A DNA stretch of 64,000 nucleotides from assembly GCF_000725425.1 (NCBI RefSeq), contig NZ_CP006019.1, positions 868,001 through 932,000 on the forward strand. The letters are read 5' to 3'. Below are positions 26,122 to 63,773 of the stretch, in pieces. The position numbers were made by a program, and so were the translations under genes. Below the pieces are notes generated by a model. It was given only the letters and a program-made list of their open reading frames with translations. It did no database searches and had not been told where the DNA came from. The number at the start of each line of letters is the position of its first letter. Position 1 is the first letter of the stretch. The stretch is from Palaeococcus pacificus DY20341 (GTDB lineage Archaea > Methanobacteriota_B > Thermococci > Thermococcales > Thermococcaceae).

Positions 26122-26126
26122 AGTAA

Positions 26127-26136
26127 ACTTTAATAA
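26127..26136 (+). promoter_or_regulatory. TATA box for the candidate structured RNA
   Basis: ACTTTAATAA is centred about 27 bases before G26158, the first base of the GC-rich RNA candidate, which is the usual archaeal TATA-to-start distance. Confidence 0.5.
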
Positions 26137-26157
26137 TATGATTTCCTACTTTAAATT

Positions 26158-26240
26158 GCCGAGGGGTGAGATGAGGAGAAAGCACCTCCACTGATGCCGG
26201 CGCTAAATGAAGATACGCCCACGGGCCGATGCCCCTTGGC
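26158..26240 (+). ncRNA. Candidate structured non-coding RNA
   Basis: An 83-base GC-rich island (near 60% G+C by eye) between AT-rich flanks. Its ends pair: GCCGAGGGG (26158-26166) with CCCCTTGGC (26232-26240), nine pairs including one G-T. Inside are possible hairpins GAGG/CCUC (near 26175-26190) and GGCG/CGCC (near 26199-26220). A TATA box lies at the right distance upstream. In hyperthermophiles GC-rich intergenic islands usually mark RNA genes. It does not match C/D box rules, and no ACA follows the 3' end, so it is not a plain C/D or H/ACA guide. It abuts the stop codon of the convergent membrane gene. Confidence 0.6.
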
Positions 26241-27713: not shown

Positions 27714-28910
27714 TCACTTCATGTCCTCCACATAGAGGAAGAGGCACTTGAGGTATTCAGTGTCTTTGGATGCCATTAGTATTGGGTGGTCTGGCGCTTG
27801 GACGCGGTAGGGCTCTAGGAGCTTCAAGAACTTTCCTGCTTTGGCGCTGGCAGCGATTATCATGTCCTTGAAGAGCTGCATATCAACGTGCTGGGAGCAT
27901 GAGCAAGTGACCAAAATACCTCCATCCTTCACGAGCTTGAGCCCTTGGTAGTTGACGTTGAAGTAAGCCCTAAGGCCTTTCTTTAAGTCCTTTTCGTGCT
28001 GGACAAAGGCGGGAGGATCCAAAATAACCACGTCAAATTTTTCACCCTCTTTTTGGAGGCGCTCCATCTCGCTGAAGGCAGATCCTATGATGAACTCCAT
28101 TCTATCCTCAACACCGTTGAGCTTTGCATTTTCTTTTGCTTGAGCTATTGCTCTAGGCGATTTATCAACAGCCACAACTTTTTCGGCTCCAGCAACAGCT
28201 GCGTGTATGGCAAAGCCCCCTGTATAGGTAAATACATCGAGAACCTTCTCTCCGCCTTTAATATATTTCTCCAGGGCTATCCTGTTCTCCCTTTGGTCTA
28301 AGAAGAAGCCTGTCTTTTGGCCTCTCATATCCACAATGAACTTTGCTTTACCTTCTGTTATAATGGTTCTATACTTTTCTTTGCCCAAGAGGACGCGCTC
28401 TATCTCTGGTAAACCTTCTCTTCTCCTAGCTCTCCCTGTGTTCTTTTCAAAAACTGTTTCTATCTCGGGCTCGGCCTCCATTATTGCCTCGGCGACATCG
28501 AGCTTAAAGCGCTCCATTCCCACGCTTGAGATTTGGAGCGAAGCAATTTCATTGAACCTATCGACTATTAAGCCGGGTAAATAGTCCGCTTCACCATAAA
28601 CCATCCTATATGCTTTTTCGTATCTTAAAATACGCTTTCTGTATTCGTTTGCTCTTTTAAGACGCTCTTTAAATAGCTCCTTGTTTACCTCTACATCTCT
28701 CTCCTTTGTTAGGAGACGCACCATTATGTTGGAGTTCGGATTGACAAAGCCCTTTCCAAGGAACTTACCTGCTCGTGAGTAAACCTCCACAACATCTCCT
28801 GGCTTTATCTCGCCTTCCGTTCTAATTACACCTTTCTTGAAAACTATCATAGCTCCTTTATCAATTGCTCTGTAAGCTTGGGCGTCAACGTAAACCTTTT
28901 TCTCACTCAT
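27714..28910 (-). CDS. SAM-dependent rRNA methyltransferase, RlmI-like with PUA domain
   Basis: A 398-residue protein with an N-terminal PUA RNA-binding domain (about 1-75, 'KKGVIRTEGEIKPGDVVEVYSRAGKFLGKGF'), the EEHE-like central domain and a class I methyltransferase (VLDVFTYTGGFAIHAAVAGAEKVVAVDKSPRA). Motif IV is VVILDPPAF and the following ILVTCSCSQHV contains candidate catalytic cysteines, as in m5C methyltransferase RlmI acting on 23S rRNA. GAGGTGA precedes the ATG at 28910. Target base is inferred from the family. Confidence 0.82.
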   Translation of the reverse strand: MSEKKVYVDAQAYRAIDKGAMIVFKKGVIRTEGEIKPGDVVEVYSRAGKFLGKGFVNPNSNIMVRLLTKERDVEVNKELFKERLKRANEYRKRILRYEKAYRMVYGEADYLPGLIVDRFNEIASLQISSVGMERFKLDVAEAIMEAEPEIETVFEKNTGRARRREGLPEIERVLLGKEKYRTIITEGKAKFIVDMRGQKTGFFLDQRENRIALEKYIKGGEKVLDVFTYTGGFAIHAAVAGAEKVVAVDKSPRAIAQAKENAKLNGVEDRMEFIIGSAFSEMERLQKEGEKFDVVILDPPAFVQHEKDLKKGLRAYFNVNYQGLKLVKDGGILVTCSCSQHVDMQLFKDMIIAASAKAGKFLKLLEPYRVQAPDHPILMASKDTEYLKCLFLYVEDMK

Positions 28911-28995
28911 AATCCTCACCTCAAAATCTCACCTTTACCTACCTCAAGCGATAGGTATTTAACTTTTGGGCCCTATATATCATATGGTGATTTCT

Positions 28996-63646: not shown

Positions 63647-63740
63647 GGGGGGCGGCCCTCCTCCGGACTTCTGGGGGCGACGGAAGGAGGGAGAAGGAGG
63701 CCCGGGGGTAGAGGCTCGGGAGGGCCACCCCTAGGAGGGC

Positions 63741-63773
63741 GCGGTCATGGGGGTTCGAATCCCCCCGTCCCCC
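63741..63773 (+). pseudogene. tRNA 3'-end-like fragment
   Basis: GGGGG-TTCGAAT-CCCCC (63749-63765) is a perfect T-arm with the invariant TTCRANY loop, followed by CGTCCCC, which would be the 3' acceptor strand. The matching 5' acceptor GGGGACG, D-arm and anticodon arm are not found upstream, so it is a fragment. Such fragments mark att sites of elements that integrate in tRNA genes. Confidence 0.5.

Follow-up and report, generated by a model that had tools for sequence, protein, structure and literature searches.

In C/D box guide RNAs, the methylated target nucleotide is the one that pairs with the fifth guide base counted upstream from box D (PMC7994747). In Thermococcus kodakarensis, ncRNA03 was reported as a 71-nt circular RNA (1593064-1593134, no alias) with 7,565 reads, and circular reads dropped from 403 in the wild type to 1 in the rnl (TK1545) knockout; the circularised RNAs were those that can form a terminal stem (PMC9014305). 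In yeast, the protein Trm44 makes Um44 in tRNA-Ser, and Um44 and ac4C12 together keep tRNA-Ser stable (PMC9957541). The Rfam family RF01128 is named sR43, while its description line reads 'sR42'. The RNA called sR42 in T. kodakarensis is another one, and annotation transferred by name would be wrong.

We analysed a 64-kb stretch of the Palaeococcus pacificus genome (64,000 nucleotides, hereafter the window), which harbours an 83-nt element between two convergent genes. The element is very probably a dual-guide C/D box sRNA gene, the local orthologue of RF01128 (sR43), with a D guide directed at U44 of tRNA-Ser. The RNA family is already known; the tRNA-Ser target and the link to ncRNA03 may be new. 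Family membership, boxes, conservation, stem covariation and guide-target complementarity were computed here, and transcription and circularisation were shown for the orthologue ncRNA03 (PMC9014305).

Identity and architecture of the element

When all Rfam families were searched against the whole window, the only match reaching its gathering score was RF01128 at 26167-26231 (cmscan, 64.7 bits where the gathering score is 45 bits, E 4.4e-13, model positions 1-56 of 56). The whole-genome search gave a single copy, at a lower score (52.3 bits). sR17 (RF01144), which has the C/D layout in common with this RNA, scored 14.3 bits against a cut-off of 36 and was rejected. The earlier note had proposed a new structured RNA without clear C/D marks. 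The RNA is structured, conserved across the order and covaries in its closing stem, but the family match refutes its novelty, and boxes C, D', C' and D were all found in the correct order and spacing (Table 1). They were probably overlooked because three boxes are one base off consensus and the spacer is long.

The GC-rich, self-pairing element occupies exactly 26158-26240 and fills most of an AT-rich gap of 119 bp (26122-26240), as the earlier note had described. Its ends (GCCGAGGGG...CCCCTTGGC) do pair, over 10 bp in the minimum free energy (MFE) structure. The naked fold of 26158-26240 has an MFE of -29.9 kcal/mol compared to a mean of -23.6 in 200 shuffles (z -2.1; 4/200 shuffles as good). 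The internal hairpins noticed earlier are present in this naked fold, but box C and the guides take part in them, and they would be lost in the RNP. The anticipated upstream TATA box was found as a TATA-like element (TTTAATAATAT), which is likely the sRNA's own promoter. The spacing from TATA box to start in archaeal promoters is about that between this element and 26158. A U-tract terminator was sought at the element and none was found.

Table 1. Features of the sRNA locus, in positions of the window.
Feature	Position	Strand	Basis or remark
Methyltransferase gene, PF05971	25384-26121	+	left of gap
TATA-like element TTTAATAATAT	26129-26139	+	read from sequence, sequence match only
C/D box sRNA gene, RF01128 (sR43)	26158-26240	+	cmscan; single genomic copy
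5' arm of terminal stem	26158-26169	+	pairs with 26230-26240; covaries in homologues
Box C AUGAGGA (ATGAGGA in DNA)	26171-26177	+	alignment to RF01128 and 65 homologues
D' guide GAAAGCACCTCCA	26178-26190	+	octamer 26182-26189 invariant; 8 Watson-Crick pairs with 16S 983-990
Box D' CUGA	26191-26194	+	RF01128 alignment
D'-C' spacer TGCCGGCGCTAA	26195-26206	+	partly complementary to D guide
Box C' AUGAAGA (ATGAAGA in DNA)	26207-26213	+	RF01128 alignment and homologues
D guide TACGCCCACGGG, predicted U44 2'-O-methylation guide for tRNA-Ser	26214-26225	+	11/11 pairs with tRNA-Ser(UGA)
Box D CCGA, variant of CUGA	26226-26229	+	RF01128 alignment and homologues
3' arm of terminal stem	26230-26240	+	fold and homologue covariation
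12-TM membrane protein gene, PF09847	26241-27704	-	convergent, right of gap

Archaeal C/D box sRNAs carry boxes C (RUGAUGA), D', C' and D in this order with guides of 10-12 nt, and the same layout was found at 26171-26229, with two guides of 12-13 nt, one each before D' and D. Three boxes deviate by one base: box C (AUGAGGA vs. RUGAUGA), box C' (AUGAAGA) and box D (CCGA vs. CUGA). The D'-C' spacer, at 12 nt, exceeds the usual length. A terminal stem stands next to the C/D k-turn and is bulged near it in this RNA. Judged by complementarity, the guides place N+5 on tRNA-Ser U44 and on a 16S candidate. A compensatory pairing in the k-turn between box C position 5 and box D position 2 (a G-C in this RNA replacing U-U) was considered and rejected, as there was no excess over shuffles (11/31 Watson-Crick vs. 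a shuffle mean of 10.5). The spacer motif CCGGCG, which reads CCGGCGT in most Thermococcus, shows complementarity to the D guide interrupted by a 3-nt bulge and resembles the tRNA target minus TGG (26195-26225); in loci where the D guide is replaced by AAAAAGGGT, the spacer starts with ACCC. The spacer/D-guide pairing is possibly a guide-masking hairpin, and it is absent from the Pyrococcus-type loci with short spacers.

In 43 of the 65 homologous loci the sRNA adjoins the 3' end of a gene for a PUA-domain methyltransferase ending in LFLYVEDMK. The sRNA is downstream on the same strand in 34 loci and convergent in 9, the orientation being flipped in the same neighbourhood. In the window this gene is at 27714-28919 (-), and the 12-TM protein gene stands between it and the sRNA. 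At 63704-63773 (+), ARAGORN called a tRNA with a two-base anticodon that is not among the 45 RF00005 tRNAs of the genome and is probably a false positive.

Distribution and covariation in Thermococcales

RF01128 was present in 89 of 94 Thermococcales genomes (E<=0.001; 71 over the cut-off), once per genome, and in 0/14 distant control genomes. Sixty-five loci were read for homologue comparison. The D' octamer GCACCTCC was present in 65/65, and box order and spacing were kept, variant boxes being common in homologues with intact guides. A pattern scan over the whole collection also gave bacterial matches (Chloroflexota, Actinobacteria, Phycisphaerae, Polyangium, Aliagarivorans); these were without C box and closing stem and were rejected as chance or unrelated repeats. 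The four Aliagarivorans stretches matching the sRNA pattern (L091, L097, L099 and L100) are near-identical and appear to be a repeat within those genomes.

The compensatory changes that the earlier note proposed to seek in relatives were found in the closing stem, whose variants include GGGAC/GTCCC, GGCA/TGCC, GCCGC/GCGGC and GGCG/CGCC, among others. Among 36 distinct stems, 173/180 cells were standard pairs compared to a shuffle mean of 122, and double-sided changes numbered 35 compared to a mean of 7.5 (0/1000 shuffles as high in both cases). The shuffle ignores sequence relatedness; the stem slid by one position, a control that retains it, gave 92 paired cells and 8 double-sided changes.

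Predicted targets of the two guides

Targets were scanned in the genome's own 16S and 23S rRNAs, all tRNAs (45 loci), RNase P RNA and SRP RNA. With tRNA-Ser(UGA) the D guide forms 11 Watson-Crick pairs out of 11, beginning at position 40 (N+1), passing U44 (N+5) and reaching into the variable arm; with tRNA-Ser(GGA) it forms 10 Watson-Crick pairs plus one G-U; there is one mismatch in tRNA-Ser(GCU) and two in tRNA-Ser(CGA). Duplex energies were -23.8, -22.0, -20.0 and -14.5 kcal/mol for UGA, GGA, GCU and CGA respectively. The next best non-serine target among those computed was RNase P RNA (-18.5 kcal/mol), and no D-guide match longer than 8 bp was found in 16S or 23S. N+5 fell on U44 in every tRNA-Ser case, and U44 was present in 110/110 tRNA-Ser genes from 28 genomes. 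Of the four occurrences of the decamer CCGTGGGCGT in the genome, two are in tRNA-Ser genes at the target site, one is the complement of the sRNA itself and one lies elsewhere. Shuffled D guides reached the same contiguous score in 6/200 cases because the targets are GC-rich, and consequently the match alone is moderate evidence; its position, its repetition across isoacceptors and its phylogeny add to the pairing. The D guide gains a testable tRNA target, tRNA-Ser U44, which is Um44 in yeast. The text of a P. furiosus tRNA mass spectrometry study makes no mention of Um44 of tRNA-Ser, and tRNA-Ser U44 is absent from the snoRNAdb predictions for P. furiosus tRNAs as quoted there (PMC7668247).

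A group of Thermococcus genomes kept the RNA, its boxes and the D' guide, with the D guide replaced (for example by AGAAAAAGGGT); no copy of the guide with a D-like box was found elsewhere in these genomes. An exact match in tRNA-Ser(GGA) was present in 14/14 genomes with the guide and in 6/13 without it (Fisher p 0.002, which overstates independence because most of the guide-less genomes belong to a single clade; the 13 include G034, which has no sR43 match). A strict rule by which guide loss means no matching tRNA-Ser failed on those six genomes. Such a pattern would be expected from a functional link between guide and tRNA and a relaxation of the constraint once the guide is lost. Within this one genus, the loss of the guide and the drift of its target amount to a natural experiment. 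In a same-genus relative (G002, locus L055), the D guide is without the consensus CCC (AAAAGCACGGG), although its tRNA-Ser(UGA) has kept the match to the ancestral guide. From these comparisons we consider it likely that Um44 of tRNA-Ser in Thermococcales is RNA-guided, by the sR43 D guide and fibrillarin, as a solution independent of yeast Trm44, and that one Thermococcus lineage dropped the D guide and kept D', after which its tRNA-Ser drifted.

The D' guide is the more conserved of the two. Its invariant positions N+2 to N+9 form 8 Watson-Crick pairs with 16S 983-990 (GGAGGTGC; -17.7 kcal/mol), and N+5 falls on G986, about E. coli G1050 in h34 by our alignment to the E. coli sequence. Competing sites are 23S 2638 (10 bp, two G-U, -15.3 kcal/mol) and 23S 2712 (9 bp, one G-U, -16.5 kcal/mol), and 26/200 shuffles reached the best D' score, so the 8-bp match is within the reach of chance. 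The 16S site was preferred over 23S because changes making the 23S G-U pairs Watson-Crick are never seen in the octamer. Judging from complementarity and conservation, the odds are about even that the D' guide directs methylation in 16S h34 at G986. There are two rRNA operons in the genome, whose 23S genes (G000:C1:764909-767965, L003, and 1524095-1527119, L002) differ solely by a perfect 32-nt tandem duplication in one copy (nt 2827-2858 repeated at 2859-2890), either real or an assembly artefact.

Proposed mechanism, alternatives and known systems

The RNA would fold back through its terminal stem, C/D forming a k-turn and C'/D' a k-loop; both would bind L7Ae, and then Nop5 and fibrillarin. 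The D guide would pair with the serine tRNAs along the 3' strand of their anticodon stem and at the beginning of their variable arm, and fibrillarin would methylate the 2'-OH of U44 (N+5). The D' guide may act likewise on h34. The strong terminal stem could lead to circularisation by Rnl in P. pacificus.

In the same sRNA, the D guide might instead be an orphan, or its target might be rRNA or RNase P RNA; pairing with tRNA-Ser would then be a by-product of GC-rich composition. Weaker 7-8 bp matches at 16S 559, 23S 1454 and RNase P 206 and the equal scores sometimes reached by shuffled guides are consistent with this, but the two tRNA-Ser duplexes are far the best (-23.8 and -22.0 vs. -18.5 kcal/mol for the next). 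In addition, the guide meets two exact isoacceptors at one and the same site, N+5 falling on a U44 that never varies, and guide loss accompanies divergence of the tRNA-Ser target, so we regard this explanation as unlikely. A degenerate or non-expressed copy of sR43 is far less probable still. Both guides agree exactly with the family consensus in their conserved cores, the copy is single in the genome and a TATA-like box is present, against which stand the one-base deviations of boxes C and D, the bulged inner terminal stem and the lower whole-genome score of 52.3 bits; variant boxes are common among homologues with intact guides.

The idea of the earlier note, an undescribed class of structured RNA (a riboswitch, regulator or terminator element), is hardly credible and was rejected on the RF01128 match. 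The stable naked fold (z -2.1) speaks for it; however, the match to a curated C/D family is full-length, and box order and spacing are kept in homologues. Moreover, the element is downstream of the preceding gene and convergent to the following one, and is consequently no leader, and it is without a U-tract terminator. A dual-guide C/D box sRNA with a tRNA-Ser guide is thus the preferred reading.

Compared to the RF01128 model, the window RNA has the same D' (AAAGCACCUCCA) and D (ACGCCCACGG) guides and the same box order, but it carries 9 nt inserted relative to the model consensus, giving its 12-nt D'-C' spacer, a longer terminal stem and the variant boxes C (AUGAGGA) and D (CCGA). In genome G023, the RF01128 match (C1:1593071-1593134, minus strand) lies inside the reported coordinates of ncRNA03. 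An obvious C/D RNA is present in G023 at the sR42 coordinates of PMC9014305, and thus the coordinate systems of G023 and T. kodakarensis agree; with the overlap, this identifies ncRNA03 as the sR43 orthologue and gives this circular RNA an identity. The two share an orthologous locus and the same guides, ncRNA03 being a 71-nt circular RNA dependent on Rnl; it differs in having been reported as an unnamed non-coding RNA and in its 5-bp terminal stem (GGGAC/GTCCC). By analogy, the long terminal stem of the window RNA suits circularisation by the archaeal RNA ligase Rnl. T. kodakarensis sR42 (Tko-sR42, PMC9014305) is likewise a strongly circularised C/D box sRNA, but it has another locus (1226948) and other guides. 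The predicted product, 2'-O-methyl-U44 in tRNA-Ser, is the same as that of yeast Trm44; by contrast, Trm44 is a stand-alone protein enzyme, whereas in this case an RNA would direct fibrillarin, a relation of analogy and not of homology.
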